From Planctomycetota bacterium (GTDB lineage: Bacteria > Planctomycetota > UBA1135 > GCA-002686595), in contig NYUD01000011.1 in NCBI GenBank assembly GCA_002683825.1, forward strand, positions 1 to 64,000: a DNA stretch of 64,000 nucleotides, written 5' to 3'. The notes beneath the pieces are model-generated. The model saw nothing but the letters and a program-made list of their open reading frames with translations, was not told the origin of the DNA and did no database searches. Positions 1,977 to 54,742 of this stretch are shown here, piece by piece (the stretch's first letter is position 1; every line of letters begins with the position of its first letter). The position numbers and the translations under genes were made by a program.

Positions 1977-4091
1977 ATGAAGTTCGCCCATTTCGAGTTC
2001 GATCCGAAGACCGCAAAGCTGGGGGAAGGCCCCTCCAGCGAGGTCTACCGGGCGATCGACACGCGGCTGGGGCGGACGGTCGCGCTGAAGATCCTGCGGC
2101 CACACGTCGAGTTCGACCCCAACGCGAAGTCCCGTTTCGAGCGCGAGGCGAAGCACACCTCGAACCTGACCCACCAGAACATCGCCACCGTCTTCGAATA
2201 CGGACAGGACCGGGGGACCTCCTACATCGCGATGGAGTTCCTCGAGGGACGAACGCTCGACAAGCTCCTGAAGGATCACCGCCTCGACTACGAAGAGGGG
2301 TTGCACATCGCCCTACAGGTCGCCTCCGCGCTCAAGCTCGTTCACGAGCGCGGCCTCATCCACCGCGACCTCAAGCCCGCGAACATCATGGTGATGGACG
2401 GGGGCCACGTGAAGCTGCTCGACTTCGGAATCTGTCGAAGCACCGGAGAGTCCAGCATCACCCAGGAGGGCATGCTGGTCGGCACGGTCCTCTACATGTC
2501 TCCGGAACAGGTGCTCGGGGAAGAGCTGGACCTGCGCTCCGATGTTTTCTCGCTGGGCTCGGTCTTCTTCCACGCCTTCACGGGCGAATTGCCGTTCCCC
2601 GGGAAGTCCTTCCCGGACGTGTGCATGTCCATTCTGGAGGCCGTTCCGGCACCGCCCTCGCACCTGCGCCCGGACTTTCCTGCTCCACTGGGTGAATTCC
2701 TTCATCGCTGCCATCAACGGGAGCCGGAAGAGCGCTATGGGGACGGAGCAGAGATCCACGGGGCACTGCTGGCGATCTCCGACAACCTGCGCCTGTCCTC
2801 CAGCGCCGAGCGTCCGAGCAACCTGCGCGGCAAGCTCATCATCCCGCCCTTCGAGCTGGAAAAGGACGCGCCGGGAGAAAAACCCGCCAGGGCCAGTGAA
2901 TTCTCGGCCGGGCTGCGGGCCGACCTGCGCAAGGCCCTCGGGCGATTGACCCGGCTGGACATCGCCATTCCCAACGAACTGCCAGAAGATCTGCGCGACG
3001 TCTACGTCATGCGCGGAAAGCTCATTTACGACGGCGAAGCGGCCGAGCTGGACTACGGCCTGGAACGGGCTCGCACGAACGGGCCCAGCGAGACCACGCG
3101 AATCTATCGCGGTCGGGTCCAGCACTCGGATGAGAACGAGTGGGGCCTGCAGGCGAAGCTGGTCGGTTCCCTGGCGCGCTCGATCAAACGCAAGCTCGCG
3201 GAATACACCCTGGTCCCCCACCCGGAAGAGGGGCGCGATCCGGACCAGGCCGTGAAACTGGCCCACAGAGCCCACAGGCTCTTGCACCGCGCCACCGCCA
3301 AGCACCTGGTGGCCGCGGTGTCGATCTATCGAGGCGCCCTCAAGCTGGATCCCAGCTGCGTCCTCGCCCACGCCGGCATGGCCGAGGCGCTGGTGCGCAA
3401 GTTCCTGTACTGGGACGGCGACACCTCGTTCCTGCAGGAGGCGCGCGAATCGGCCCACAGGGCCCTGGCAATCGACCCCTTCGCCGCGATGGCCCACACG
3501 GCCCTGGGCTTTGCCCACATGATGAACGGCGACATCGAAGAGGCCCAGCGGGAGTACCGCCTGGCGATCCAGATCGATCATGACGAGTGGCTGGCCCACC
3601 GTCTGCTCGGCGCCCTGCTCGCGCGGATCGGAGCGCTGGAAAACGCGGTGCCCCTCCTGGAACGCGCGATCGCGCTGCGACCCGCCCACATCGGCTCTTA
3701 CGACCATCTCTACGGCGCCCTCTGCCGCCTGGAACGCTACGAAGCAGCGATCGAGATCGCCGATCGAGGCGTGCTGGCCGCCGACGAACACCTTCAGAAG
3801 GTGCGGGAGGACCAGGAGGCGCGCATGCACAAGGAGCTCCTCTTGGCGCGCATGGGCCTGAGCGACAAGGCCCGCGAAACCGTCGAGGAAGCGCGCAAGC
3901 TCTTCCCCAAGGACGCCTATACGGCCTACAAGGGAGGCTGCGTCCTGACACTGGTCGGCGACCTGGACGACGCACTGGGGCTTCTGCGCGAGGCGCAGGA
4001 GCGCGGATTCCACCTGCAGCCCGAGATCCAGCGCAACTCCGACCTGGAGATCCTACGGGGACGCAAGGAATTCCAGGCGCTGCTCACCTAG
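1977..4091 (+). CDS. Serine/threonine protein kinase with TolB-like region and TPR repeats
   Basis: A cytoplasmic 704-residue Hanks-type kinase. The glycine loop is LGEGPSSEV (residues 15-23) and the ATP-anchoring Lys is K38 in VALK. The catalytic loop HRDLKPAN starts at 129 (Asp131), DFG is at 149-151, and the YMSPEQ activation-segment end follows. After the kinase fold (to about 285) comes a segment of about 110 residues resembling the TolB-N-like domain found in adenylate cyclases and planctomycete or acidobacterial kinases. At least five TPR-like helical pairs then run to the C terminus. No transmembrane helix is evident, so it is probably a soluble signalling scaffold. I chose ATG 1977 because kinase homology begins directly after it; an upstream in-frame start at 1905 would add 24 unconvincing residues. 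The third Gly of the loop is Ser. The phosphorylation targets are unknown. Confidence 0.85.
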   Translation: MKFAHFEFDPKTAKLGEGPSSEVYRAIDTRLGRTVALKILRPHVEFDPNAKSRFEREAKHTSNLTHQNIATVFEYGQDRGTSYIAMEFLEGRTLDKLLKDHRLDYEEGLHIALQVASALKLVHERGLIHRDLKPANIMVMDGGHVKLLDFGICRSTGESSITQEGMLVGTVLYMSPEQVLGEELDLRSDVFSLGSVFFHAFTGELPFPGKSFPDVCMSILEAVPAPPSHLRPDFPAPLGEFLHRCHQREPEERYGDGAEIHGALLAISDNLRLSSSAERPSNLRGKLIIPPFELEKDAPGEKPARASEFSAGLRADLRKALGRLTRLDIAIPNELPEDLRDVYVMRGKLIYDGEAAELDYGLERARTNGPSETTRIYRGRVQHSDENEWGLQAKLVGSLARSIKRKLAEYTLVPHPEEGRDPDQAVKLAHRAHRLLHRATAKHLVAAVSIYRGALKLDPSCVLAHAGMAEALVRKFLYWDGDTSFLQEARESAHRALAIDPFAAMAHTALGFAHMMNGDIEEAQREYRLAIQIDHDEWLAHRLLGALLARIGALENAVPLLERAIALRPAHIGSYDHLYGALCRLERYEAAIEIADRGVLAADEHLQKVREDQEARMHKELLLARMGLSDKARETVEEARKLFPKDAYTAYKGGCVLTLVGDLDDALGLLREAQERGFHLQPEIQRNSDLEILRGRKEFQALLT

Positions 4092-4136
4092 CCCGGGCTA
4101 GGCAAGGGCGGAATCGACGCTAGGATCCCGCCCATC

Positions 4137-5963
4137 ATGAGCGAGATTCGCAACATCGCGATCGTGGCCCACGTCGATCATGGCAAGACCACTCTGGTCG
4201 ATTCCATGTTCTCCCTCGCGGGAACGTTCCGGGACAACCAGACGGTTCCCGAACGGGTCATGGACTCGGACGCCCAGGAACGGGAGCGCGGAATCACCAT
4301 CCTGGCCAAGAACACCGCGATCCAGTACTCCGGCACGCGGATCAACATCGTCGATACCCCCGGCCACGCGGACTTCGGCGGACAGGTCGAACGCACCCTG
4401 GCGATGGCGGACGGCGTGCTGCTCCTGGTCGATGCCTTCGAGGGCCCGATGCCGCAGACGCGCTTCGTGCTCGGCAAGGCCTTCGAGCGCGGTCTCAAGG
4501 TCTGCGTGATGATCAACAAGATCGACCGGCCCGACCAGCGCGCCGGCGAGGTCTTGAACGAGGTTTTCGATCTCTTCTGCGAACTCGGAGCGGACGATCA
4601 CCAGCTGGAATTCCCGGTCGCCTACGGTTCGGGACGCGACGGCTGGGCGGCGCTGGATGCCGGGTCCTTGCCGAAGGGAGGCCGGGGGGACCTGAAACCG
4701 CTCTTCGATCTGTTGCTCGAGCACATCCCGGCGCCCAAGCGCGAGCTGGAGGGACCGCTGCGCTTTCAGGCCTCGACCCTGGATCACGACGACTTCGTGG
4801 GACGCATCGGCATCGGTCGCGTCGCCCGCGGCCGTCTCGAGCGGGGCGCCCGGGTCCTCCTGTGCCACCCCGACCGCAAGAAGGCCGTCCCGGTCGTGAT
4901 CAAGTCGCTCTTCCGTTACGTCGGACTGGAGCGTACACCGGTCGAGACCGTCGAAGCCGGGGACATCGCCATCGTCGCCGGCATCGACGAGCTCTCGATC
5001 GGCGACACCCTGTGCGACCTGGAGTACCCCGAGCCCCTGCCGGGAATCGAGGTGGACGACCCGACGCTCTCGATGGTGTTTCAGGTCAACAACTCCCCCT
5101 TCGCCGGGAAGGAGGGAACCTATGTGACCTCGCGGCACCTGCGCGCCAGGCTGGAGCGCGCCCAGCTGCGGGACGTCGCGATCGAGCTGGCCGACACCGG
5201 CTCCGCCGACGCGATCGAGGTCAAGGGCCGGGGCGTGATGCATCTGGGCGTTTTGATCGAGCAGATGCGCCGCGAGGGCTTCGAGTTCGCCGTCGGCAAG
5301 CCCCACGTGATCATGCACTGGGTGGACGGCGTGCGCTGCGAACCCTACGAGCGGGCATCGGTGGAGGTGCCGCCGGAAGCGGCCGGCAGGATCATCGAAT
5401 ACCTGGGGCGACGCCGCGGCGAGATGCTCTCGATGGAGCCCCTGGGCCCGAACCTGACCAAGCTCGAGTTCTCGATTCCGGCGCGCGGATTGATCGGAGC
5501 ACGGACGGCCCTGTTGACCCTGAGCCAGGGCGAGGCGGTGCTCACGCACGTCTTCGAGGAGTGGAAGAAGGACGGCGGCAAGATCCCCCGCAGGGCCTCC
5601 GGAGTCCTGGTCTCGGATCGCAGCGGCCCGACGATCGCCTACGCCCTGTCGGGCCTGTCCGATCGCGGCACCTTCTTCGTCGAGGTCGGCACCGAGGTCT
5701 ACGGGGGCATGATCGTCGGCGCGAACAACAAGGACTCGGACCTGCCCGTCAACGTGTGCCGTCAAAAGAAGCTGACGAACATGCGCGCCGCGGGAAAGGA
5801 CGACAGCTCCGTCGTGAGTCCGCCGCGGCTGTTCTCGCTGGAGGAGTCACTCGAGTACATCGAGGACGATGAACTCCTGGAAGTGACGCCGGCGAGCCTG
5901 CGCCTGCGCAAGCGGGTCCTCGACGATAACATCCGGCGCAAGCTCGCCCGCTCTCCGGGATAG
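4137..5963 (+). CDS. typA: TypA/BipA ribosome-associated translational GTPase
   Basis: This is a full-length TypA/BipA (608 aa; the family is about 600-615), a translation-factor GTPase that binds 70S ribosomes and helps ribosome assembly and stress adaptation. G1 is AHVDHGKTT (residues 11-19), the switch region carries RGITILAKN, G3 is DTPGHADFGG and G4 is NKID. The EF-G-like domains II, III and V follow, and the BipA-specific C-terminal region carries the GANNKDSDLPVNVC and TNMRA motifs. ATG 4137 places MSEIRNIAIVAHVDHG at the N terminus exactly as in characterised homologues. It lies 45 bases after the kinase gene and ends before a strong hairpin terminator. Assignment is near certain. Confidence 0.97.
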   Translation: MSEIRNIAIVAHVDHGKTTLVDSMFSLAGTFRDNQTVPERVMDSDAQERERGITILAKNTAIQYSGTRINIVDTPGHADFGGQVERTLAMADGVLLLVDAFEGPMPQTRFVLGKAFERGLKVCVMINKIDRPDQRAGEVLNEVFDLFCELGADDHQLEFPVAYGSGRDGWAALDAGSLPKGGRGDLKPLFDLLLEHIPAPKRELEGPLRFQASTLDHDDFVGRIGIGRVARGRLERGARVLLCHPDRKKAVPVVIKSLFRYVGLERTPVETVEAGDIAIVAGIDELSIGDTLCDLEYPEPLPGIEVDDPTLSMVFQVNNSPFAGKEGTYVTSRHLRARLERAQLRDVAIELADTGSADAIEVKGRGVMHLGVLIEQMRREGFEFAVGKPHVIMHWVDGVRCEPYERASVEVPPEAAGRIIEYLGRRRGEMLSMEPLGPNLTKLEFSIPARGLIGARTALLTLSQGEAVLTHVFEEWKKDGGKIPRRASGVLVSDRSGPTIAYALSGLSDRGTFFVEVGTEVYGGMIVGANNKDSDLPVNVCRQKKLTNMRAAGKDDSSVVSPPRLFSLEESLEYIEDDELLEVTPASLRLRKRVLDDNIRRKLARSPG

Positions 5964-6024: not shown

Positions 6025-8373
6025 CTAGAAGCCGACCGTGGCCTGGACGCCGTTGCACAGGGCGATGACACCGCTGGTGACGGTTCCACCCTGGAAATAG
6101 CCCACGCGGCCGAGGTACGAGACGTCGTTCGGAATGGGCAACAGGTGCGAGGTCACGAAGGGTGTGGCGGTCTGGATGTCCGTCACGATGTTGGTGCTGG
6201 TCGGATCGACGAGCAGCTCACCCGCGGCCAGGACGAGGGAGAAGTCCGTGGTGTAGCCCAGGACGAAGGTGAGGTTGGGGAAGCCGCCGACCTGGGTTTC
6301 CCAGGTGGTGCCGAGGACCGGGAGGTTCACGGCGCCGTAGCAGAAGGGGTTGACGCCCGTGCCGTTGTAGTCGTTGGCCTGCGCCACCGGCCCCGGATTG
6401 CAGTCGAAGGTGCTGGCGCTGAAGGTGTCGACGCCGGCCTCGGTGATCGAGTCGTTGGGGTCGTCGGAAACGGTGAAGCGCACCTTGATCGAGGCGTTCG
6501 GATTGACGTGGTCGGAAACACGGAAGGTGTTCTCGATCCAGCCGCCGGCCTTCAGCTCGATGGTCTCGACGGTCGTATAGCTGGCTCCGTCGTTGTTGGA
6601 GACGGCCACGACCAACTCGTCGCGCTCCGCGCTGTCGGCGTCGTTGCAGAAGAACCAGCGCTTGTAGCTGATCAGCCCGTCGCCGCCGGAGAAGTCGAGG
6701 GTCGGGGAGCTCAGCCGCGTCGTGCCCCCGTCGAGGTCGAGGTTGCCGGCCACTCCGCCGCCGTTGAGACCGGTCATGTAGCAGTTGGCACCGGGGGTGT
6801 CCGGATCACCGCTCTCGGGCTGGGCCCCGTCTTCGACCGGGTTGCCGCGGGCGAAGGGAGCCGTGGGGTTGTTCGTGTTCGAGACGGTCCAGCCGAGGTT
6901 CGACTGGAAGTTGTCGCTGAAGACCGATGTCAGGCCGTCGGCGGCGTAGGCGGAGTGGAAGCTCGAGGGAGCGTCCGCAGGAGAGTGGTAGCCCTCGAGG
7001 TTCGTCGCCAGGGCCGAGACGTAGTAGTCGAGGCGGCTGTCGCAGGCGACCGCCGGGAGGTCGCCGGTGTAGGTGTTGCCGCCGGTGTTGGTCATCGCGG
7101 TCTGGACGAACGGCGCGCCGTCGATCGAGGTGAGCAGGAACACGCTCGAGGTGACGCGGTTGCCCAGCTCGTTGATCTGGACGGAGATCGAGGTCGGTAC
7201 GCTCGGCGAAACGATGAGGGGCCGGGCGGAGGGCCAGACGATCTCGAGGGCGCTCATGTCGATCACGTAAATGCCCTCACCGATGTCGGATGCGAGCACG
7301 CGGTCCTCGCCGAGCCCGGGGTAGACGCCCCAGCAGCCGGCGAAACCCGTTCCGGGCTGGGTCGAGGTGTCGAAGGAGGCGACCATCTCCCAGGTGTGGG
7401 TCGTGCGATCGATCTGGAGCACGGCCACCCCGGCCGAGTAGTTGGACACGTAGACGCGGTTGCCCTTGAGGACCGGGTTGTGCGCGCTGAACGTCTGGCC
7501 AGTGCCGCTGGTCGGACTGACCCAGGAGTCCCGGGGGCGCAGATTGACGTTGCCGCCGTTGTCGACGAGCTCGTAGAGCCGCATCGCGCCGGCGCTGCGC
7601 TCCTCGGTGGTGACCACATAGACGCCGTCGTCGCTCGGCCACACGGCGTGGGAACTGATCCCGCGCACCTCGCCGAGGAACGTGGGCGCCGAGTTGCCCA
7701 GGTTGCTGACGTCGTAGACGATCATGTCGTCCCAGCCCGAGATGAAGAGGTAGTCGTCGGTGATCGTGACGTCGTGGACGAAGTTGGACAGCCCCGTCAG
7801 CTCGTACAAGAAGTCTTCGATCTGCCCCCCAGATGGGGGGCTGTTCGGATCGTAGTTGCGAAGATCGATGATGCCGATGCTGGGGTTGCTCGAATCACAG
7901 ACGACCAACCAACCGTCGTCGCGGTAGGTGGTGTTGTGAACGAAAGTCGTAGGTCCTGCGAGGTTTTCGGCGTTGATGCGCGTCAAACGCTGGGGGTTCG
8001 AGGGGTTGGAGATGTCGACGATCTCGACGCCGTCGCTCCCGCCCGATTCGAGCGAGACGAACATGAGCGGGACGCCCGGCGCCAGGGGAACGGTGCCCGC
8101 CTTGATGTCCTGGTCGCTGGCCGTGCTGTTGGGATTGGAGGAGGTGTAGGTGGAGGAGATGGAGATGTTGTTCGGGTTCGAAACGTTGACGATGTCGATC
8201 TGGTTCTGCCCGAAGCGTGCGAGCAGGGCCAGGTTTCCGTGGCCCCAGATGTCTCCGTAGGAGGAGCTGCCGATGTCGATGTTGTCGCGCTGTGTCGCGT
8301 GAAACGACGGATCCTGGGCCAACGCTGTCGAACTGAGAAGACTCGCGGCGAGTGTGATGAGGGCGTAGTTCAT
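6025..8373 (-). CDS. Secreted LVIVD-repeat (choice-of-anchor B type) protein
   Basis: A 782-residue exported protein. It starts with a clean signal peptide (MNYALITLAASLLSSTALA, cleavage before QD). About 400 residues of LVIVD-type propeller repeats follow, seen as IDIVNVSNPNN, VEIVDISNPSNP, IGIIDLRNYDPN and MIVYDVSNLGN, matching the choice-of-anchor B family. Residues about 480-680 form a jelly-roll-like domain beginning FSDNFQSNLGW that also occurs in the carboxypeptidase at 62240. The last 90 residues resemble the C terminus of the FG-GAP protein at 16833 (LLPIPNDVSYLGRVGYFQG against LPVNPALAGMTRYLQG). I chose ATG 8373 because it gives the signal peptide; the open frame continues upstream without coding character. 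The function is unknown, probably an extracellular or surface protein. Confidence 0.85.
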   Translation of the reverse strand: MNYALITLAASLLSSTALAQDPSFHATQRDNIDIGSSSYGDIWGHGNLALLARFGQNQIDIVNVSNPNNISISSTYTSSNPNSTASDQDIKAGTVPLAPGVPLMFVSLESGGSDGVEIVDISNPSNPQRLTRINAENLAGPTTFVHNTTYRDDGWLVVCDSSNPSIGIIDLRNYDPNSPPSGGQIEDFLYELTGLSNFVHDVTITDDYLFISGWDDMIVYDVSNLGNSAPTFLGEVRGISSHAVWPSDDGVYVVTTEERSAGAMRLYELVDNGGNVNLRPRDSWVSPTSGTGQTFSAHNPVLKGNRVYVSNYSAGVAVLQIDRTTHTWEMVASFDTSTQPGTGFAGCWGVYPGLGEDRVLASDIGEGIYVIDMSALEIVWPSARPLIVSPSVPTSISVQINELGNRVTSSVFLLTSIDGAPFVQTAMTNTGGNTYTGDLPAVACDSRLDYYVSALATNLEGYHSPADAPSSFHSAYAADGLTSVFSDNFQSNLGWTVSNTNNPTAPFARGNPVEDGAQPESGDPDTPGANCYMTGLNGGGVAGNLDLDGGTTRLSSPTLDFSGGDGLISYKRWFFCNDADSAERDELVVAVSNNDGASYTTVETIELKAGGWIENTFRVSDHVNPNASIKVRFTVSDDPNDSITEAGVDTFSASTFDCNPGPVAQANDYNGTGVNPFCYGAVNLPVLGTTWETQVGGFPNLTFVLGYTTDFSLVLAAGELLVDPTSTNIVTDIQTATPFVTSHLLPIPNDVSYLGRVGYFQGGTVTSGVIALCNGVQATVGF

Positions 8374-29534: not shown

Positions 29535-30476
29535 ATGAAGACCATGGGATGCCTCAAACAATTCCGACTTCGACGGACTCGAACCGTCCTGGCGTGCGCT
29601 CTCGGGCTGTCCCTCACAGACCTCGCCACGGCTCAGGAGGGGGGCATCGAGGTCTTTGCGGCCGAAACGCTGTTCGCCACCGGAACGAGGGTTTCGATCA
29701 GCCACATCTTCAAGAGGAAGGGGACGCTCCTGCAGGGCAGCGACTCGGTTCCCAACACGTTAGATCTGGGTCGAGACGAACACCGCATCGTCGCCGCGGT
29801 CGACCACGGGATCCGTCCCGACCTGACGCTCTCTGCGCTTTTTCCCTTCGTTACGAAGGAACTCGAATCGAACGCCGGCGATCTCTCCGGCTCCGGGTTC
29901 GGGGACCTGGCCCTGCTGGCCAAGTACCGGACCTACAAGCGGGACTGGCCCCGGGGCGCCTTCCATCTCTCGACCATCGGCGGGGTGGAGATCCCGACCG
30001 GGGAGACGGACGAGCAGGACGGTGGAACCCGGCTTGCCCCGCAACTGCAACCCGGGCTCGGATCCTGGAATCCGTTTATCGGGCTCTCGGCAAACCTCAA
30101 CCTCAACCGTTACCGCTTCGACGCCCTGGCGCTGTACAAGCTCAACACGGAGGGAGCGCAGGACTTCGAGAAGGGCGATTTCGTTTCCCTGCAGGCCGAT
30201 GCGGCTTACCGTTTCTACCAGACCAAGTATCCTGGCCCGAGCGCCAGCGCCAGGCTGGGGCTGCAGTGGCGCCACGAGGGAAAGTCGAAACAGGCCGGGC
30301 TCACCCTGGCCGATAGCGGGTCCGAAGAGCTCCTCCTGAAAGGGGGCCTGGGTTGGCATCCGGCACCGAACATCGACATTTCGCTGGCGATCGACCTGCC
30401 CCTCTACGAGGATCTCGAAGGCACACAACTGGGCCTCGATTACCGCACTTTCCTGGCCCTTGGCATCCGTTTCTAG
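29535..30476 (+). CDS. Outer-membrane beta-barrel protein (phenol-degradation MetA-like transporter family)
   Basis: A 313-residue outer-membrane barrel. The signal peptide (CALGLSLTDLATA, cleavage before QEGG) is followed by alternating amphipathic strands (TRVSISHIFKRKG, RIVAAVDHGIRPDLTLSALFPFV, GDLALLAKYRTYKRD, LSANLNLNRYRFDALALYKLN). The C terminus ends in a Phe (LALGIRF), the usual outer-membrane insertion signal. This matches the Phenol_MetA_deg/transporter family, which contains small-molecule or hydrophobic-compound channels. It sits 3 bases after the hydrolase and 10 bases before the Sec-type lipoprotein gene. Such neighbours suggest an envelope module handling a metal or hydrophobic ligand; this is inference. 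Confidence 0.85.
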   Translation: MKTMGCLKQFRLRRTRTVLACALGLSLTDLATAQEGGIEVFAAETLFATGTRVSISHIFKRKGTLLQGSDSVPNTLDLGRDEHRIVAAVDHGIRPDLTLSALFPFVTKELESNAGDLSGSGFGDLALLAKYRTYKRDWPRGAFHLSTIGGVEIPTGETDEQDGGTRLAPQLQPGLGSWNPFIGLSANLNLNRYRFDALALYKLNTEGAQDFEKGDFVSLQADAAYRFYQTKYPGPSASARLGLQWRHEGKSKQAGLTLADSGSEELLLKGGLGWHPAPNIDISLAIDLPLYEDLEGTQLGLDYRTFLALGIRF

Positions 30477-30486
30477 GCCCAAAGCA

Positions 30487-31011
30487 ATGAATGCACGCCC
30501 GGTCCTTTCCGCCCTCATGCTGAGCACACTCGCACTGAGCTTCGCATGTCGTTCCGCCCCTCGCTCCGCTCCAAAAGGCGAACTCTTCGCCACGGTCAGT
30601 CTCCAGTTCGATACATGAATATGAAACGACAAGGCCTTCGGCTTGGAGAAGGTCCTACGGCGCCAGGTCGGCGCTGACATCGTAGATATCGACACGGAAG
30701 AGGGCACGGCGGGCTACAGGCTCCTGCATCCCATGCGCATCGACTTCCGGGCGATAGAAAAGGCGGCGTATGATGCCGGCTACACGTTGACGGAGGTCGT
30801 TCTGGAGATCGTCGGGCAATCCTTCACGACCTATTGCGATGAATGTTCAGCCGACGTCCACGTGCTCAAGATTCCGCAGACAGATCAGAACTTTGAGCTC
30901 GAGGGAGACGTTCCCGACAAGACTACCCTGCGCCTGACGGGATCCGCGAAGGGCTGGGGAGGAGCGCACGCGCGCCTTGTCGTGGTGGCTTCTGTGCCGA
31001 TCACCGAGTAG
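30487..31011 (+). CDS. Probable selenoprotein: HMA-like lipoprotein with Sec-x-Sec (two in-frame UGA codons)
   Basis: Conceptually 174 residues if both in-frame UGA codons, at codons 44 (30616-30618) and 46 (30622-30624), insert selenocysteine. Upstream of them is a signal peptide ending LALSFAC, a lipobox-like site with Cys21. Downstream the same frame stays open for 128 codons. Residues about 33-110 follow the heavy-metal-associated fold: strand ATVSLQFDT, then U-I-U, helix NDKAFGLEKVLRRQ, strand VDIDTEE, helix FRAIEKAAYDAGY, strand TEVVLEI. The two Sec residues occupy the place of the HMA metal-binding cysteines. A second segment carries CDEC (117-120). A bacterial SECIS-like hairpin follows the UGAs and selA is at 53333. 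UGA is a normal stop in other genes here (for example at 21489). Alternative: two nonsense mutations in a Cys-type gene. It ends a tight three-gene operon. Confidence 0.8.
30632..30656 (+). promoter_or_regulatory. Candidate bacterial SECIS element
   Basis: Bases 30632-30639 pair with 30648-30656 (eight pairs with U30653 bulged: A-U, G-C, G-C, then C-G, C-G, U-A, U-A, C-G). They close an 8-base apical loop ggcuugga at 30640-30647. The loop starts with GG and lies 21 bases after the first UGA and 15 after the second. This fits the bSECIS rule of a G in the first two loop positions at about 16-37 nt. Confidence 0.65.
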
Positions 31012-35306: not shown

Positions 35307-38300
35307 CTAACGCACCGCGAAGGAGAAGAAATCCACTCCCCCGAAATCGACTCCCGAGAATCGCAACGTGTTATCCATCGGATCGATCGAATCCGCAGGC
35401 AGGATGAGCGGCGTGGGATTCTCGAGGTCGATGAGAATGATGCCCCAACGCGTAACGTCGTTCAGGGTGTTGAGATCCCCCAGCCGCAGCTCCACGTTCA
35501 CAAGGCCGACGCCGTCACCGTTGCCGCCATCGGTCAAAGTGACCGACCAGCTCTCCCTGAGACGGAAGGTGTAGCCCCCTATGCCAAAGAAATCGGCTTC
35601 CAGCTTTCCCGAGCCATTGTGGCCCCACAGGAAGAAGTCTCCGTCCGAGAGAGCCGTGGGGCTAAAGATGCCGACGGCTCCCGTTCCGGACGCGCCACTC
35701 ACCCTGTCCGAATCGCTGATCCTGCCGATGCCCGTCACGTCCTTGCCGTGTGTCGACAATCGCGCGTAGAGGACCTCGCTCTGAAGATCGATCCCGTAGC
35801 GGCCGGCGAAGTGGTGTTCAAGAAGCTTGCGACGCGCCTCTCCGGAGACTTCGGCCACGGCGAACACCTCGTAGATGTCACCGTCGTATTGTCCGCCCGT
35901 GTCGAAGGCGGAGCCCAGGAGCCAATCCGAATCGTTGATCGAGGAGGCATTGTGCGTTTGGTCGTTCTCAAACTCGCCGTCGAGGTAGAGAGTGTGCCTG
36001 GGCTCGTCGCGCGTGAGCATCAACAGGTGAGGCTCGCCGTCGGCCACCGGAGCGTCGCCTGCGGCCCGCCGGTTGTTGACGGCGCCCTGTGAAATTCCGA
36101 ACTCCACACCCAGCCGCAGATTGGCCGGGGTTGAGCTCGCCCTCGATGTCCCGACGATGGCCGGAGAGGCCTTCCAGTTGGAGTTCCCCTGGACAAAGTT
36201 GGTGGTTCGGGTCACCGCGGCCAACGTGAACTTGCCCGAGAGCGGCGAGGGGAACCGAAGCGCCTGTCCACCGAAAAACCGGACGGCCGGAAGCGCGGGG
36301 GGACCGGCTCGCTCGACGAGACGAGGCTCGAGTCCGTCCGCAAGGGGTCGGGCATTGTTCGGAATCAGGGCGTTGTCCTTCCACTGCAGAACCAGGTCGG
36401 AGGAGGGATCGACGACCACCCCTCGGTCCGCGCGAACCCAGAATTCCACGAGATTGCCGCCGGAGTGGATGCTGTAGCCACCGGGCCCGTCTTCACCGGT
36501 GAGACCATCGAAATCGCCGGGCGCAATCGTTACCGAAATGGTGTCGCCCACCGCCGTGTCTGAGGGGAATGCGAACAGCGATATCGGTGTCACCTCGTAG
36601 GTCAAGACCGAATTCAGGTCCGCAGGAATGACGAAGTGCTCGTTGACCTCTCCCGGAACCTCGATGCCGTTGCGAAGCCAACGCTCGACGGTCTCGCCCT
36701 GAATATCGTTTTCCGGGTCGAAATAGCGGTAGGAACCCATCAACGTGCCCCCGATGAAGGGCGGCCCCGTGATGCGAACCTCGAGAGCCTGGGGTGGAAC
36801 GCCATCCTCGACCGTGCTCTCCGGATCGAGGGGGTCGGTGCCGCGGAAGATCTCGAGCATGTCGGGAACTCCGTCGTTGTCGCTGTCGGTCATCATGGTG
36901 ATCGGACCGACCGCACCGAGGTTCAGGAGATAATTTTCAAGCGCATCGGTGATCCCATCACCAGCGGGGCCTGTCTCGTCGTTCGTATCCTGATCCCCGT
37001 TCGGGAGGGGCGAATCGCTGTCGTATGGATCAAAGCCTGCACGAACCTCCAGGTAATCGGGCAATCCGTCGCCATCGGTCTCGCTCGAGGCGAAAACCGG
37101 ACCGGAGGTGCCCAGTTCAATCAGCACGAACTCCAGTCCGTCGGAAATGCCATCGTTCGGCGGACCGGTGTCGTCGTTCTCGTCGAGCCCTCCCGCGACC
37201 ACGGGAAGATCCCCGTCCACCGGTTGGCCGAGCCCGGCGATTTCAAAATAGTCGGGAATGCCGTCGGCATCGGTATCCGACGCGGTGCCCAGGGGCTCTT
37301 CAGCACCCAGGCGAAGCAGGACGGCCTCGAGCCCGTCGGAGAGAAGATCCCCATCGCTGTCGAGACCACCGTTCTCGACCGGATGAGATGCGTCGAGCAA
37401 GTCGCTGACGGCGAAGACCTCGAGATAGTCGGGCGCGCCGTCACCATCGGTGTCGGTGCCATGGTCGATCGGAGCGCGAGCGCCCAAGGACACGAGTAGC
37501 CGCTCGAAAGCATCGGAGATCGCATCCACAGGTCCGCCGCCCTGATCCCCATCGTCGAGGTCCATGCCGCCGTTGGGAACGGGAAGATCCCCGAATCTCG
37601 GATCCGGTGCGACGAAGGGCACGAAACTCGGATGGAAGGGGGCGGTGACTTCGAATACGTCCGGCGCACCGTCCGAATCGCTGTCGACCCGACCGTCGAT
37701 GATGGCGAAGACGCCCAGCCTCAAGAGAAGCACCGGAATGGACTCCGGGATGTCGTCGCCGTCCGTGTCGAGAGCCCCATCCGGGGAGGGATTGGTCGGA
37801 TCGAGCGGATTTCCTCCGATTCGGATCTCGAGGTAGTCAGGAGCTCGGTCGAAGTCGAGGTCCGTCCCGGGCCCGGGGGATACGGCCCCCAGGCGCTCGA
37901 GAACGAACTCGACGCCATCGAGGATCCCGTCGGCATCGCCGTCGAGATTCCCGGATCCGCCCGCGAGCGGATCCTCGCGGTCGAAGAAACCCGTCGCAAA
38001 ACGAGCCTCGTAAATATCGGGGATCCCATCCACGTCGGAATCGGTGCGACCAGTGACAGGAGCGGCTACGCCGCTGGCGACCAGGTAGTGCTCGAGCGCA
38101 TCCGAGACCCCGTCGCCCGACGGGCCGGTCTCGTCATTTGTGTCTCCGCCGCCGAGAACCGGGTCGTCGCGATCGAGAACTCGGCTGGGCAGTACGACTT
38201 CGAGCGCGTCGAACAAACCGTCGCCATCGGAATCGGTATCGGGCTGGACGTCGGGAATACCGAGGCGCGCCAGAGCCTCCTCGAAGGCGTCAGAGAGGCC

Positions 38301-39941
38301 GTCTCCGTCGGAATCATCCGCACCGCTCGGCGACGGGTCGTTCGGATCGAGGGGATCGGCATCGACCAGGAGCTCGAGGTAATCGAACGCTCCGTCCCCA
38401 TCGGCATCGCGCGAACCGCCGGGAGCAGGATCGCTGGGATCGAACGGATCGGTCAACGTCCGCACCTCGATCACGTCCGGAATCGAATCGCCGTCGCTGT
38501 CGCTTCCGGGTGTGACCGGCCCCTCGGCCCCCAGCGCCAACAGAACCGACTCCAGCGCATCGCTGACTCCGTCGCCCTGCGGACCAGCGGGCGAGTTGAT
38601 GTCATCTCCGCCGTTCACCTCGGGCGAATCAGAGTCGGTCAAGTCCGACAGGAAGAGTGCTTCGATGACGTCGGTAACACCGTCTTCGTCGGTGTCGGAA
38701 AGCATCGTCACCGACCCGGTCGCTCCGAGCATCAAGAGCACTTCTTCCATGGCGTCCGAGACGCTGTCGTTCGGCGGCCCGCTCATATCGTTCGTGTCCT
38801 GCTCACCGTTCACGACGGGCGAATCAGAATCCTCCGCATCGAGTCCAAGCCGAAGCTCGAGGGCGTCGGGGATGCCGTCCAGGTCCACATCGGCTTGAAG
38901 CAGGATCGATGGATCGCGGGGGTCGAACGGATCGCTTCCCGTCGCCGCCTCCAGCACATCGGGGATGCGATCGCCATCCTGATCGCTCTCCCCATCGACG
39001 CCGACTGCGCCGCTGCGAGTCAGGAGTGCCTCCAGGCCGTCCAAGACCCCGTCGCCGTCCGAATCCAAGTTCCCTGCCGGCACAGGCTCGTCCGAATTGG
39101 TGGGGCTGCTGCCGCTACGCGCTTCCAGGTAGTCGAACACACCGTCCCCGTCGGTGTCGACGCGCGCCGTGACAGGCAGCGTAGCACCGAGGAAATCCAG
39201 GATCGTTTCCATCGCATCGGTGATCCCATCGGTCGGCGGACCGGTCGCATCTCTTTCGTCTCTTCCGCCGTTGGTGACGGGTTCGTCGGAATCGAGCGGA
39301 TCGATCCCAAATTCCACCTCGAAGGCATCGCTCAACCCGTCTGCATCGAGGTCGAAACGCGCCACGTAGAACGGATCCTGCACGTCGAACGGATTCGTAC
39401 CGGTCCGCATCTCCAGCACGTCCCCGAACCCGTCCCTGTCGGTATCGTTCTCCTTCGTGATCGGCGCCGTGGCACCGCGGCGCACGAGATAGATCTCCAG
39501 CCCGTCGTTGATCCCATCCAATGGCGGCCCGGAGGGCTGGAGGTCCTGGTTGCCCTTGAGGTGGGGATCGTCGAAGTCGAGGTGATCCAGGCCGCTTCGC
39601 ACCTCCGCGTAGTCAGGAATCCCGTCGAAGTCCGTGTCGGTCTGCGCCGTGATCGGCGCCGAGGAGCCCGTGTCGAACAGGTACTGTTCCAGCCCGTCGG
39701 GAATGTTGTCCACCCCGGGTCCGATCACGGTGTTCAGATCCAACGCTCCCCCCACGAAAGGGTCGTCGGCGTCGGTAGGATCGCTCGAAAGATGCGATTC
39801 GAGACTGTCGGGCAACCCGTCTCCGTCGCTATCGGTCAGGAGCGGAAGGTCGCCGCCACCCCCCCCGCCACCATCACAGGCGGCGAGCATCGAAACCAGC
39901 AGGAGGCCTGAGGTAAGGGAGAATCCGATCCTGTTTCGCAT
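35307..39941 (-). CDS. 1544-residue calcium-repeat surface lipoprotein
   Basis: A very large exported lipoprotein. The signal peptide ends with lipobox SMLAAC, followed by a poly-Gly linker. Then come about 14 full and one partial tandem units of roughly 60-70 residues. Each pairs a thrombospondin-type-3/EF-like calcium loop (DSDGDGLPDSLE, TDTDGDGAPDYLE, SDTDADGIPDYFE) with a second helix motif (GPPxDGIxDALExxLxxLGAxxP). After a bridging Ig-like segment (IGGTLMGSYRYFDPEND) there is a LamG/concanavalin-like domain (about 1190-1370, with RFFGGQALRFPSPLSGKFTLAAV and HTLYLDGEFEND). A C-terminal beta domain ends DFFSFAVR. ATG 39941 supplies the signal; the open frame to 40496 is not coding. It probably forms a calcium-stiffened adhesive rod outside the cell. 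Confidence 0.88.
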   Translation of the reverse strand: MRNRIGFSLTSGLLLVSMLAACDGGGGGGGDLPLLTDSDGDGLPDSLESHLSSDPTDADDPFVGGALDLNTVIGPGVDNIPDGLEQYLFDTGSSAPITAQTDTDFDGIPDYAEVRSGLDHLDFDDPHLKGNQDLQPSGPPLDGINDGLEIYLVRRGATAPITKENDTDRDGFGDVLEMRTGTNPFDVQDPFYVARFDLDADGLSDAFEVEFGIDPLDSDEPVTNGGRDERDATGPPTDGITDAMETILDFLGATLPVTARVDTDGDGVFDYLEARSGSSPTNSDEPVPAGNLDSDGDGVLDGLEALLTRSGAVGVDGESDQDGDRIPDVLEAATGSDPFDPRDPSILLQADVDLDGIPDALELRLGLDAEDSDSPVVNGEQDTNDMSGPPNDSVSDAMEEVLLMLGATGSVTMLSDTDEDGVTDVIEALFLSDLTDSDSPEVNGGDDINSPAGPQGDGVSDALESVLLALGAEGPVTPGSDSDGDSIPDVIEVRTLTDPFDPSDPAPGGSRDADGDGAFDYLELLVDADPLDPNDPSPSGADDSDGDGLSDAFEEALARLGIPDVQPDTDSDGDGLFDALEVVLPSRVLDRDDPVLGGGDTNDETGPSGDGVSDALEHYLVASGVAAPVTGRTDSDVDGIPDIYEARFATGFFDREDPLAGGSGNLDGDADGILDGVEFVLERLGAVSPGPGTDLDFDRAPDYLEIRIGGNPLDPTNPSPDGALDTDGDDIPESIPVLLLRLGVFAIIDGRVDSDSDGAPDVFEVTAPFHPSFVPFVAPDPRFGDLPVPNGGMDLDDGDQGGGPVDAISDAFERLLVSLGARAPIDHGTDTDGDGAPDYLEVFAVSDLLDASHPVENGGLDSDGDLLSDGLEAVLLRLGAEEPLGTASDTDADGIPDYFEIAGLGQPVDGDLPVVAGGLDENDDTGPPNDGISDGLEFVLIELGTSGPVFASSETDGDGLPDYLEVRAGFDPYDSDSPLPNGDQDTNDETGPAGDGITDALENYLLNLGAVGPITMMTDSDNDGVPDMLEIFRGTDPLDPESTVEDGVPPQALEVRITGPPFIGGTLMGSYRYFDPENDIQGETVERWLRNGIEVPGEVNEHFVIPADLNSVLTYEVTPISLFAFPSDTAVGDTISVTIAPGDFDGLTGEDGPGGYSIHSGGNLVEFWVRADRGVVVDPSSDLVLQWKDNALIPNNARPLADGLEPRLVERAGPPALPAVRFFGGQALRFPSPLSGKFTLAAVTRTTNFVQGNSNWKASPAIVGTSRASSTPANLRLGVEFGISQGAVNNRRAAGDAPVADGEPHLLMLTRDEPRHTLYLDGEFENDQTHNASSINDSDWLLGSAFDTGGQYDGDIYEVFAVAEVSGEARRKLLEHHFAGRYGIDLQSEVLYARLSTHGKDVTGIGRISDSDRVSGASGTGAVGIFSPTALSDGDFFLWGHNGSGKLEADFFGIGGYTFRLRESWSVTLTDGGNGDGVGLVNVELRLGDLNTLNDVTRWGIILIDLENPTPLILPADSIDPMDNTLRFSGVDFGGVDFFSFAVR
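36812..39840 (-). repeat. Tandem calcium-binding repeat array within the giant lipoprotein
   Basis: About 15 units at roughly 180-210 bp spacing encode alternating DxDxDGxxDxxE loops and GDGISDALExxLxxLGA helices. DNA identity between units is modest, so the copies are diverged rather than freshly duplicated. Some units carry an extra calcium loop (near nt 38300-38420 and 39310-39360), showing irregular expansion. Confidence 0.85.
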
Positions 39942-40436
39942 CCCGTGTGAAGCGTGGGTGAGGGGTGGACGAGTACTTTTTCCATTCTCCCATAGGCCCC
40001 GATGGGGCGTGAGGAAATCTTCAAATCCACTTCTTACCTTTCCCGAGAGGTACTTTCGGGAAGGCTTCCGGACCTTCGGTGGAGTTTTTTGCCTACGAGC
40101 GGACGCCCCAAACAGCCTCGCCCCACGATCAAAATCAACCGGGTGGTCCTGAAGCCCATCGCCAACGCCGCCCAGGCCCGTCACGACGTCGCGAGCGAGA
40201 ACGCAGGTGGCCTCGGGGGGGGGAGCGGGAACCATCACGCACAGGAGCCCCGAGAGGGCGAATGTTCGGTTCCATGTGCCTTGAGACGCGCCAAAAACGC
40301 CCATTCGGTCGGGATCCCCCCGGATCGGGACGCTCGCCCTTGCCGCCGGCCCTTTCGAGCGGGGACAGGGAGGCCCGTGCGCTCCCGCAACAATTCCCCT
40401 ACCTTGGGCCGGCCTCGTGTCCCTTCCCACCCCTGG
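39942..40436. other. 495-bp divergent intergenic region
   Basis: It separates the minus-strand giant lipoprotein from the plus-strand Mla operon. An imperfect hairpin at 40037-40064 (ccttTcccga with tcgggaagg) and a T6 run at 40085-40090 lie in it, but the two are not adjacent. No gene-like frame is convincing despite open frames on both strands. Confidence 0.45.
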
Positions 40437-41276
40437 ATGTCCGCTCCTACAACCGCCACACCCCGAGACGATCCGTCCGCTGCCTGTGCAGAACACATTT
40501 CGCTCCGCGGCGTGAGTCTGTCGTTCGGGTCGCGCGTCGTCATGCAGGAGCTCAACTGCGGCTTCCCGCGAGGGAAGATTTCGGTGGTTCTGGGCGGCAG
40601 CGGCGTGGGCAAGAGCACGCTCCTGCGTCTGATCGGGGGTCTGGTGCGTCCCCAGACGGGATCGATCGAGGTCGACGGAGAGGAAACCACGCGCTTGCGC
40701 GAACGAGAGCTCTACACCGTACGCAAGAAGATCGGGATGCTCTTCCAGAACGGAGCCCTACTCGATTCGATCACGGTATTCGACAACATCGCCTTCCCCC
40801 TGTACGAACACACACAGCTGAGCTCTGATGAGATTACTGAGCGCGTCCACGAGTTCCTCGAGGCCGTGGGGCTGTACGAGGTGGACGAGCTGTTTCCGGC
40901 CCAGCTATCGGGCGGCATGACCCGACGGGTCGGCCTGGCGCGCGCCATGGTCCGCCAACCCGAAATCCTCCTGTGCGACGAGCCTTTCTCGGGACTCGAT
41001 CCGATCTCGGCCAAACGCATCGAATTGTTGCTGTGCGAGCTGAATCGCAAGCACGGCCTCACGATCGTCGCGGTCTCGCACGACATCCCCTCCACCCTGC
41101 GCATGGCGCATCACCTGACGATGCTCTTCCCCCAGGATTCCTTCGAAGGCACGCTCGAAGAACTCCTGGCGATCGACGATGATCGCATACGCAATTTCCT
41201 CAGCCTGGAACTCGACGAATCGCTGTCTTCCCAGGCCGAGGTGGAACGCCTCGAGGAGGAGGGAAGTTCACTGTGA
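40437..41276 (+). CDS. mlaF: MlaF-type ABC ATPase, second Mla locus
   Basis: A 279-residue ATPase for phospholipid transport. Walker A is GGSGVGKST, the Q-loop FQNGALLDSITVFDN, the signature SGGMTRR, Walker B EILLCDEPFSGLDP and the H-loop VAVSHD. The GALLDS(I/M)T motif is characteristic of MlaF. The C-terminal extension FEGTLEELLAIDDDRIRNFLSLE resembles the MlaF tail that contacts MlaB and the neighbouring subunit. ATG 40437 lies just before the family N terminus (CAEHISLRGVSLSFG). It overlaps the permease gene by 4 bases and heads the five-gene locus mlaF-mlaE-mlaD-mlaA-mlaC. A separate MlaB is not present. Confidence 0.95.
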   Translation: MSAPTTATPRDDPSAACAEHISLRGVSLSFGSRVVMQELNCGFPRGKISVVLGGSGVGKSTLLRLIGGLVRPQTGSIEVDGEETTRLRERELYTVRKKIGMLFQNGALLDSITVFDNIAFPLYEHTQLSSDEITERVHEFLEAVGLYEVDELFPAQLSGGMTRRVGLARAMVRQPEILLCDEPFSGLDPISAKRIELLLCELNRKHGLTIVAVSHDIPSTLRMAHHLTMLFPQDSFEGTLEELLAIDDDRIRNFLSLELDESLSSQAEVERLEEEGSSL

Positions 41277-53336: not shown

Positions 53337-54742
53337 GCGAGCGCGCGAAACGCCTCGATTATTCCGTCGCGGTCGTCAGCGAGCAGCGTACGTGGATCGA
53401 GCAAGAGAGCGTCGTCCTGAATCCGGGCGAACACGCACGGATCGCCGGCCCGCAGGCGCGCGGCAAGCTGATCGACGCTCCAGGAGTCGTGTCCGGCGCG
53501 CACCACGAAACTCGGCAAAAACACGTTCGGCGCGCTTCCGCTGCCCGGTTGGGAGGCGTCCTCGACCAACCGGGCCGAGAAGCCCTGCATGCTGTCGATC
53601 GCCCGGACGAGCTCTTCGGCGTCGGCTCTGGTGTCCTCGGCGCTTTTCAACAGCATCACGCGCGTGGGAATCTCGTCCGCACGGCCATCCAGGTACAACT
53701 CGAGGGTGCGTTCCAGACCCGCGATGGTGACCTTGTCGAGGCGCAGGGCGCGATACAGCGGGTTCTTGCGCAGGAGCGCGATCGCCTCGGCCCGGCCGAC
53801 GATCAAACCGGCCTGCGGCGCGCCCAGGAGCTTGTCGCCTGAAAAAGTCACGACATCGACGCCGCTTTCAACGGCCTCTCTCACGAGCGGCTCGCCACCC
53901 AGCATCTCGAGCGGCATCGAATTCTCGCATTCGAAGCGGCCGGAGCCCAGGTCGAAGGCGCTGGTCACCTTCAACTCGACGCCGAGGGCAGCCAGGTCCT
54001 TTGCCTCGATCTCTTCGGTGAAGCCCACGACCTTGAAGTTTGAGGTGTGGACCTTCAGCAGAAGCCCGGTCGCGTCACACTTCGCTTTGCGGAAGTCTTC
54101 GGGTCGCGTACGGTTGGTCGTTCCCACCTCTACCAGGCGTGTGCCCGCCTTTTCCATCACGTCGGGCATGCGGAACGAACCGCCGATCTCTACCAGTTCC
54201 CCGCGGCTGACGAGGGTCTCACGGCCCGCAGCGAAGGTGGAGAGCAAAAGCACGACCGCGGCGGCGTTGTTGTTCACGCAGATCCCCGCTTCCGCGCCGG
54301 AGAGTCGACACAACAAGGTCGACAGGCGATCGTCGCGCTGGTTGCGCCGGCCGCTGAAACGATCGACCTCCAGCACGCCGAAGCTGCGTGCCGCTTCCTC
54401 CATCACCGAGGCCACCTCCGGATGGACCGGCGCGCGGCCGAGGCCGGTATGCAACACGACGCCGGCGGCGTTGATGACCCGTGTGTAGCCGCCCTTCTCT
54501 TCGCACTCGATCCTTCCCAGCAGCGAGCGCTCGAGATCACCGCCCTCGAGGCGCTCCTTTACGCCGGCCGAGTCCAACTCGCCCGCGCCAATCGCCGCGC
54601 GCCAGCCGTCGAGGATCTCGACCAGAAAGGAAGTCAGGAGCTCCCTCGCACAACGCCCCTCGAGAGCGCGCACATCCGGCCGGGAAAGCACGTCGTCCAC
54701 CTTGGGGAGCAGCCGATAGGGATTGGTCGCTTCTTTTTTCAT
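53333..54742 (-). CDS. selA: L-seryl-tRNA(Sec) selenium transferase
   Basis: A 469-residue SelA (E. coli 463), the PLP enzyme that turns Ser-tRNA(Sec) into Sec-tRNA(Sec) using selenophosphate. Full-length features include the N-terminal tRNA-binding helix (NPYRLLPKVDDVLSRPDV) and the motif RVINAAGVVLHTGLGRAP. LEVDRFSGRRNQRDDRL and VNNNAAAVVLLLSTFAAGRE follow. The PLP-anchoring Lys304 lies in FSGDKLLGAPQAG. I chose ATG 54742 since it begins the family; the frame open to 55027 overlaps recJ. No selB, selD or selC is within the window. Its presence shows the organism makes selenocysteine and supports the double-UGA gene at 30487. recJ is divergent 67 bases away. Confidence 0.97.
   Translation of the reverse strand: MKKEATNPYRLLPKVDDVLSRPDVRALEGRCARELLTSFLVEILDGWRAAIGAGELDSAGVKERLEGGDLERSLLGRIECEEKGGYTRVINAAGVVLHTGLGRAPVHPEVASVMEEAARSFGVLEVDRFSGRRNQRDDRLSTLLCRLSGAEAGICVNNNAAAVVLLLSTFAAGRETLVSRGELVEIGGSFRMPDVMEKAGTRLVEVGTTNRTRPEDFRKAKCDATGLLLKVHTSNFKVVGFTEEIEAKDLAALGVELKVTSAFDLGSGRFECENSMPLEMLGGEPLVREAVESGVDVVTFSGDKLLGAPQAGLIVGRAEAIALLRKNPLYRALRLDKVTIAGLERTLELYLDGRADEIPTRVMLLKSAEDTRADAEELVRAIDSMQGFSARLVEDASQPGSGSAPNVFLPSFVVRAGHDSWSVDQLAARLRAGDPCVFARIQDDALLLDPRTLLADDRDGIIEAFRALA

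Follow-up and report, generated by a model that had tools for sequence, protein, structure and literature searches.

A probable double-selenocysteine lipoprotein of the HMA kind, encoded next to an outer-membrane channel gene in Planctomycetota

The forward-strand gene at 30487..31011 of the planctomycete DNA analysed here (a stretch of 64,000 nucleotides, hereafter the window) has two UGA codons in its reading frame and very probably encodes a genuine selenoprotein, judging from its sequence and from that of its relatives. It is near certain that these codons are decoded as selenocysteine (Sec, U), and the function of the product is predicted from fold and gene context. We put at roughly 0.65 the probability that it is a heavy-metal-associated (HMA) lipoprotein with two Sec residues, paired with a COG4313-like channel, and that it binds a soft, thiophilic metal. 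A sequence-only reading of the window had already proposed a double-selenocysteine protein. Conserved UGA pairs, SECIS-like hairpins, distant UxxU, CxxU and CxxC relatives and the presence of the Sec machinery speak for that proposal, and point to Sec in the protein. We regard the gene as part of a new selenoprotein family, apparently a Sec-containing version of the HMA type.

When TGA is translated as a residue, the frame runs unbroken and without frameshift from the ATG at 30487 through 174 codons to a TAG stop (31009-31011), as the sequence-only reading had described. The first UGA is codon 44 (30616..30618) and the second is codon 46 (30622..30624). The mechanical list of open reading frames (ORFs) contains only the portion after the UGAs (30643-31011), and thus stop-to-stop annotation would lose the start of the gene. 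Homologues without conservation downstream of the site had been named as the mark of a pseudogene. Instead, dN is lower than dS past the UGAs in all eight pairs with at least 55% identity, and in the closest pair (L059/L077; 124 codons) dN is 0.065 and dS 0.775, which indicates purifying selection on the codons. Where Ile stands between the two UGAs, it is encoded by ATA in 10 of 13 genes, although 28 of 796 Ile codons in the longer mechanical ORFs of the window are ATA. AAC directly follows UGA46 in all 24 genes of the U-x-U (UxU) type (in the window gene, 30619-30627 covers these codons). Elsewhere in the window, a very large ORF on the minus strand (35307-40496) consists of repeated acidic, Asp-rich units, and we assume that it may encode a secreted calcium-binding repeat protein.

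The read-through protein matches 15 of 101 genomes (its own included), and two in-frame TGA codons are present in every match that extends across the site; the sole match that starts past the site (L016, in genome G002) belongs to a U-x-x-U (UxxU) gene. Conserved UGA in many species had been suggested as a sign of Sec, and it was found both in the order and in a wider scan. Among 154 genomes of the order, 19 match at E <= 1e-8 and 17 of these have two in-frame TGA codons, the remaining two matches missing the site (the UxxU gene of G002 and a C-terminal fragment in G090). A DNA motif scan over 84,980 species across GTDB, with a pattern that admits Cys codons at both positions, returned 21 stretches. 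Sixteen are genuine members (by record title, 12 from Planctomycetota and four untyped), and all 16 read UGA-x-UGA. The other five (L057, L062, L063, L064 and L076) were dropped as short chance frames; two of them, in Treponema, read UIUNDKAYG but stop within 17 codons. Homologues with Cys at codons 44 and 46 had been named as another such sign. None turned up: a Cys/Cys form of the UxU site is absent among the 16 genuine scan members, the pattern demanding NDKA[FY]G and therefore missing NEE, NDM and NDA forms, and Cys occurs at the aligned HMA sites of more distant CxxU and CxxC relatives. In the phylum (392 genomes) 69 genomes match at E <= 0.001, many of these matches being weak and without TGA. 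A single-protein relative scan of GTDB contigs gave 65 pattern stretches (one pattern had Cys at the Sec site) and a viral contig scan gave 21, with no confirmed relative in either; PHROGs yielded one match only, with an E-value of 0.16.

We fetched 40 regions with their flanks. Genomes G017, G212, G421 and G239 were left out of this set, as were weaker matches such as those in G035, G165, G222, G257, G410 and G435. Together with the window, these 41 loci contain 46 domain matches, of which 24 are UxU (15 followed by N-D and nine by N-E). Other site forms include UPIU, USPU, UGTU, UMGU, UGEU, UMPU, UPMU, UMAU, CPIU, CNLU, CNLC and CTFC, among others. Hence the wider family in the phylum includes single-UGA and Cys members, none of them spaced as in UxU. 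A tree of 45 rows, built on 86 columns only, unites the 24 UxU sequences with two odd single-UGA rows in a group of 26 (91/88), within which the N-E rows are a clean clade (100/99). A gene at a contig start (L048 1-387; G239:C182) has three in-frame UGAs, reading U-T-U-N-D-U, and so combines the UxU with the HMA UxxU arrangement; this triple-UGA gene is present in one of seven genomes of its order. Decay-like relatives were also seen. Two of them (L095 7022-7474 and L102 4041-4547) have a single UGA and lack a clear pair of hairpins, with no barrel gene to be found, and a third (L138) is a C-terminal fragment only.

Past the UGAs, codons are chosen in a way that favours a tandem pair of hairpins. 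Hairpin 1 of the window gene (30632..30656; loop GGCTTGGA) follows UGA44 by 21 nt and UGA46 by 15 nt, and hairpin 2 (30658..30676; loop AGGTC) follows UGA46 by 40 nt; both are SECIS candidates. We compared the folding of the 54 nt past the second UGA with that of 200 synonymous recodings in 36 of the 46 domain matches, selected for two UGAs and for E <= 1e-4 (two UGAs occur in 37 of the 46). The mean z was -2.68 and 30 of the 36 genes fell below -1.64, whereas control windows (one before, two after) had mean z values of -0.18, 0.28 and -0.34, with four, three and three of 36 genes below that value. The bias is non-significant in six genes (L079, both L099 genes, L096, L113 and L117). When the hairpins are taken separately, mean z is -2.31 for hairpin 1 and -2.68 for hairpin 2. 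The window gene itself reaches -2.29 over the full 54 nt, with -1.38 for hairpin 1 alone and -2.28 for hairpin 2. Two CxxC relatives show no hairpin bias (z 0.14, 0.17 and 0.73, 1.04), the CNLU gene retains both hairpins (-1.77, -3.0), and the odd single-UGA genes are without the pair (L095 0.23, 0.06; L102 -1.15, 1.47). RNAalifold over the 24 UxU genes gives hairpin 2 alone, and its consensus fold has compensatory changes in four of six pairs; in single folds, the register of hairpin 1 differs between NEE and NDK genes.

Rules for bacterial SECIS elements given in one part of a recent review (PMC13188914) are a loop of 3-9 nt with a G in its first two positions, a spacing of 16-37 nt and a minimum free energy of -7.5 or lower. 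Hairpin 2 has a G within the first two loop positions and an energy below -7.5 in 35 of 36 genes. It lies 31-32 nt from the second UGA in the UxxU genes, all 12 of which fall within the published rules, and 40-41 nt from UGA46 in the UxU genes, beyond the published range, so that none of these 24 fits. Judged by loop, energy and spacing, hairpin 1 fits to UGA44 in 14 and to UGA46 in seven of the 24 UxU genes, and to the first UGA in seven of 12 UxxU genes (21 of 36 genes overall). Based on these spacing fits, one hairpin per UGA is a good guess. Given their conservation, the two tandem hairpins may serve as bacterial SECIS elements for SelB and tRNA-Sec.

The window also encodes a selenocysteine synthase, SelA (53384..54478, minus strand; PF03841, 416 bits). 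In the genome as a whole SelA, SelB (on C102; 312 bits, cut-off 242), SelD (324 bits) and tRNA-Sec (G000:C109:33243-33336; 73.4 bits, cut-off 47) each score above cut-off. The SelD gene has an in-frame TGA of its own and is 1.7 kb from tRNA-Sec (G000:C109:30611-33336). Sec is generally used in this group, with tRNA-Sec above cut-off in 95 and SelB in 93 of the 101 genomes, and thus the machinery by itself does not single out this gene. Among 14 control genomes the tRNA-Sec model is above cut-off in five and SelB in two, so tRNA-Sec alone is not decisive.

Two other accounts of the interrupted frame have to be weighed against Sec. Read-through of two UGAs might reflect another amino acid (Trp or Cys), inserted through an altered code or a suppressor. 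We consider this very unlikely and reject it, as UGA is a frequent stop in the window and Sec machinery is present, including the SelD gene with its own in-frame UGA. The sequence-only reading was right that UGA is an ordinary stop nearby: TGA ends 18 of the 38 mechanical ORFs of at least 250 amino acids. Moreover, UGA swaps with Cys at the aligned HMA sites of the CPIU, CNLU, CNLC and CTFC relatives. Even less probable, to the point of being almost negligible, is the reading that the frame belongs to a pseudogene or is open by chance past a 43-codon peptide. Two stops do stand close to the start, a Pfam match is absent, and decay-like copies exist elsewhere (L095 and L102 with one UGA, and the C-terminal piece in G090). 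However, the UGA pair is conserved in many species, the sequence downstream of it is under purifying selection (dN < dS), the hairpins are under selection and the gene is paired with a channel gene; we rejected this reading on the conserved UGAs, the hairpin bias and the dN/dS comparison.

The protein had been read as a lipoprotein, and the alignments agree with this. The lipobox Cys (codon 21; 30547..30549), which follows the signal peptide, is invariant in 15 of 15 rows of alignment A1 and in 16 of 16 rows of alignment A3. We anticipate that the product is lipidated and probably sorted to the inner face of the outer membrane. An AlphaFold model built from a 16-row alignment, with UGA entered as Cys, has a pLDDT of 88.5 and a pTM of 0.78. 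Its strands (35-41, 65-69, 74-79 and 101-117) and helices (47-61 and 87-96) form a beta-alpha-beta-beta-alpha-beta HMA domain, and four further strands make up a beta domain. Foldseek matches include CopP, CopZ, Atx1, MerP (1osd) and the N-domain of ZntA (probability 1.00, target TM 0.67-0.78, E 0.01-0.07). The best E-value belongs to EF-G (8.2e-3, probability 0.84) and nothing reaches 0.001. RPA and lysyl-tRNA synthetases also appear, which we take to reflect an OB-like C-terminal part.

The window protein has no Pfam match at E <= 1, PF00403 included; PF00403 matches two of the 15 rows of A1, which are mostly UxU, and all 16 UxxU/CxxU/CxxC relatives (A4). A profile comparison with these 16 relatives gives an E-value of 4e-20 and places U46-N-D-K49 on C-x-x-C. 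Together, the model, the Foldseek matches and this comparison support the HMA-type fold that was proposed from the sequence. The further claim that both UGAs fall on the HMA cysteines stands in part: in the profile alignment UGA46 pairs with the first Cys, but UGA44 is an added site and Lys49 occupies the position of the second Cys. The site is thus U44-x-U46-x-x-K49, with only U46 on a motif Cys, and does not reproduce the C-x-x-C ligand pair. In the model, the Sec-x-Sec site would fall in the loop that precedes helix 1, the place at which HMA proteins bind their metal.

Ten nucleotides upstream of the lipoprotein gene, on the same strand, is a gene for a predicted outer-membrane beta-barrel channel (29535..30476; PF13557, COG4313-like) with a C-terminal Phe, the single barrel of this kind in the genome. 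COG4313 channels carry hydrophobic compounds. In Foldseek, the model of the barrel (pLDDT 78.3) is similar to the COG4313 channel 4rl8 (E 2.6e-12), and the barrel alignment has no invariant Cys. ORF calling and clustering identified the barrel on the same strand at 36 of the 41 loci, upstream in 35 and downstream in L111. A later barrel search added L085 and L100, and the barrel was not found at the remaining three (L116, L095 and L102). The gap between the two genes is 861 nt in L089, 382 nt in L107 and otherwise at most 237 nt. Among the 101 genomes, 23 have the barrel at E <= 1e-20, and in 21 of these a two-UGA HMA lipoprotein gene is downstream on the same strand (at short distance in 20, and at 0.86 kb in G079). 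In the other two, the contig ends (G086) or a different lipoprotein follows (G033, L159), presumably a Cys-rich, YHS-like one. The barrel is also present in 17 of 17 genomes whose lipoprotein was found by the searches of the 101 genomes and of the phylum, and absent from G090 (the fragment) and G035 (a weak HMA match). The pairing with an outer-membrane barrel noted in the sequence-only reading is therefore a recurrent one, seen in 21 of 23 barrel genomes and at 38 of 41 loci, and the lipoprotein and the channel are probably made together.

No metal gene was noticed by the pair in the window, where the profile scan of neighbours takes in three proteins. Across loci, 22 neighbour proteins were scanned, the L110 HMA protein and channels among them. 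At L110 (CxxC), eight same-strand genes stand in a row: a MerR-family regulator, a thioredoxin-like gene, the barrel, the HMA gene, a DF-family gene, a MerTP-like gene, a second HMA gene and MerA. The CadR/PbrR, ZntR-type and MerR models score equally on the regulator, all below cut-off, the DF-family gene is above cut-off, the MerTP-like gene has 95 of 180 bits, and MerA scores 559 bits against a cut-off of 454. Portions of this set occur at L108 (CxxU) and L111 (CxxC), and the regulator at L112 (UxxU) is nearest to MerR (131 bits, cut-off 150.85). MerA is above cut-off in one of the 101 genomes, the UxxU genome G083, about 1.4 kb from the barrel and the UxxU gene (L154; G083:C207, about 46-50 kb), and a general heavy-metal ATPase (TIGR01525) is near. 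Of the 18 UxU genomes in the set of 101 (76-95% complete; 14 matches of the read-through protein plus G065, G076, G097 and G099), none has it above cut-off, the best being G017 with 406 bits and the window's genome reaching 365 bits (cut-off 454.45). This makes it less likely that the UxU genes serve strictly in mercury reduction.

Genes with a CopZ N-terminal part (NF047645, above cut-off) and with MerT-like and HMA parts occur at three loci. They adjoin the pair in L107 (8767-10443, minus strand) and L109 (7049-8995, minus strand), both UxxU, and in L086 the fusion gene (3919-5763, minus strand) is 1.3 kb from a UxU pair. The MerT-like parts near L086, L107, L109, L110 and L111 are all below cut-off. 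L099 (5273-10417) contains a UMPU and a UTU gene, both of the Sec-HMA type, and 0.7 kb downstream there is a copper-translocating P-type ATPase (TIGR01511, 588 bits vs 397); a CusA/CzcA pump (TIGR00914, 848 vs 701) is 4.7 kb from the UxU gene of L086. Given these two genes, copper or other metals fit as well as mercury does. At L106 a second HMA gene, with U-M-A-U (6220-6789, minus strand), comes right after a UPMU lipoprotein gene and appears to us to be fused to a thioredoxin-like domain (WCAPCK).

The same neighbours bear on what the Sec site does. The metal could be copper, silver or another metal rather than mercury, in which case the pair would be an outer-membrane unit for copper and silver handling. 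The HMA matches in the PDB are mainly copper proteins, and the ATPase at L099, the pump at L086 and the lack of an above-cut-off MerA in 18 UxU genomes all lean this way; the MerA genes that score above cut-off next to the pair at L110 and L154, and the MerT-like parts near five loci, lean the other, and on balance we hold this alternative to be unlikely, if a serious contender. A redox role is less probable still, and we rate it as doubtful. The two Sec residues of the U-x-U site would then be joined in a diselenide, or bonded to C117/C120 in a selenenylsulphide, and the protein would act at the outer membrane by reducing disulphides, peroxides or selenite. Thioredoxin-like genes adjoin L108, L110 and L111, and a thioredoxin-like part is found in the L109 fusion gene and seemingly also fused to the UMAU HMA protein of L106. 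In addition, a part of the review PMC13188914 judges most uncharacterised selenoproteins likely to be redox-active. Against this, the fold is that of HMA and not of thioredoxin in both the model and Foldseek, the CxxC at 117-120, correctly picked out in the sequence-only reading, is kept in only 13 of the 16 rows of A3, and metal genes are close to several relatives.

We thus favour a metal-binding lipoprotein with two Sec residues. UGA44 and UGA46 would be read as two selenocysteines two residues apart, in a modelled HMA domain that is followed by a small beta domain. The Sec site most likely binds a soft, thiophilic metal in the periplasm, or an organic form of it. Hg(II) is our first choice, with Cu(I) and Ag(I) possible, and the metal may be taken from the channel or passed to it. 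More tentatively, and with the odds somewhat against it, the pair may be an unrecognised outer-membrane soft-metal system of planctomycetes in which the UxU site arose from the UxxU/CxxC site of mer-type sets and each UGA has one SECIS element. The UxU branch would then have gained a Sec two residues upstream and lost the second ligand; the U-T-U-N-D-U gene shows both. The gene adds a selenoprotein family that stop-to-stop annotation splits at codon 44, and links a family of outer-membrane channels to a Sec-HMA partner. It also raises the testable matter of whether bacteria decode two UGAs six bases apart with one hairpin each, and the question of why two selenols would be employed at a metal site in the periplasm.

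No UxU HMA selenoprotein was found in the open literature, which is the only literature covered, and an earlier description is possible; nor was a report found there of COG4313 or FapF channels paired with a Sec-HMA lipoprotein. Table 1 of PMC13188914 (2026), the part of that review that bears on this, has 119 prokaryotic selenoprotein families and subfamilies, with UxxU and UxxxxU in the table and UxU absent from it. MerP-like Sec sequences in ocean data are reported in PMC2398784, and planctomycete selenoproteins are treated in PMC4807772. The partner barrel shares its fold with the COG4313 channel 4rl8 and with FapF (Foldseek E 2.6e-12 and 5.3e-12, respectively), and PF13557 as well, but is only 17% identical, and FapF, by its title, secretes amyloid.

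Among known HMA proteins, the UxxU_metal_bind family (NF041115) likewise has an HMA fold with two Sec residues in the metal motif, and matches 15 of the 16 UxxU/CxxU/CxxC relatives at E <= 0.01. Unlike the window protein, its model of 74 positions has no space for the added beta domain. It matches three of the 15 mostly UxU rows of A1 at E <= 1 (best 0.037), and NF041115 (curated cut-off 95 bits) is not among the matches of the window protein at E <= 1. MerP (TIGR02052) and the MerT/CopZ-type selenoprotein NF045683 are also HMA metal proteins, as seen in the Foldseek match to 1osd and in weak profile matches that are far below the curated cut-offs (13.5 of 92.55 bits and 16.6 of 375 bits, respectively). 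They differ from the window protein, a predicted lipoprotein that has an additional beta domain and is paired with a channel. The UxU motif itself recurs in the C-terminal part of SELENOP, where, according to a part of the review PMC11818150, such motifs are said to bind Cd; SELENOP, in contrast to the planctomycete protein, is a eukaryotic plasma protein.
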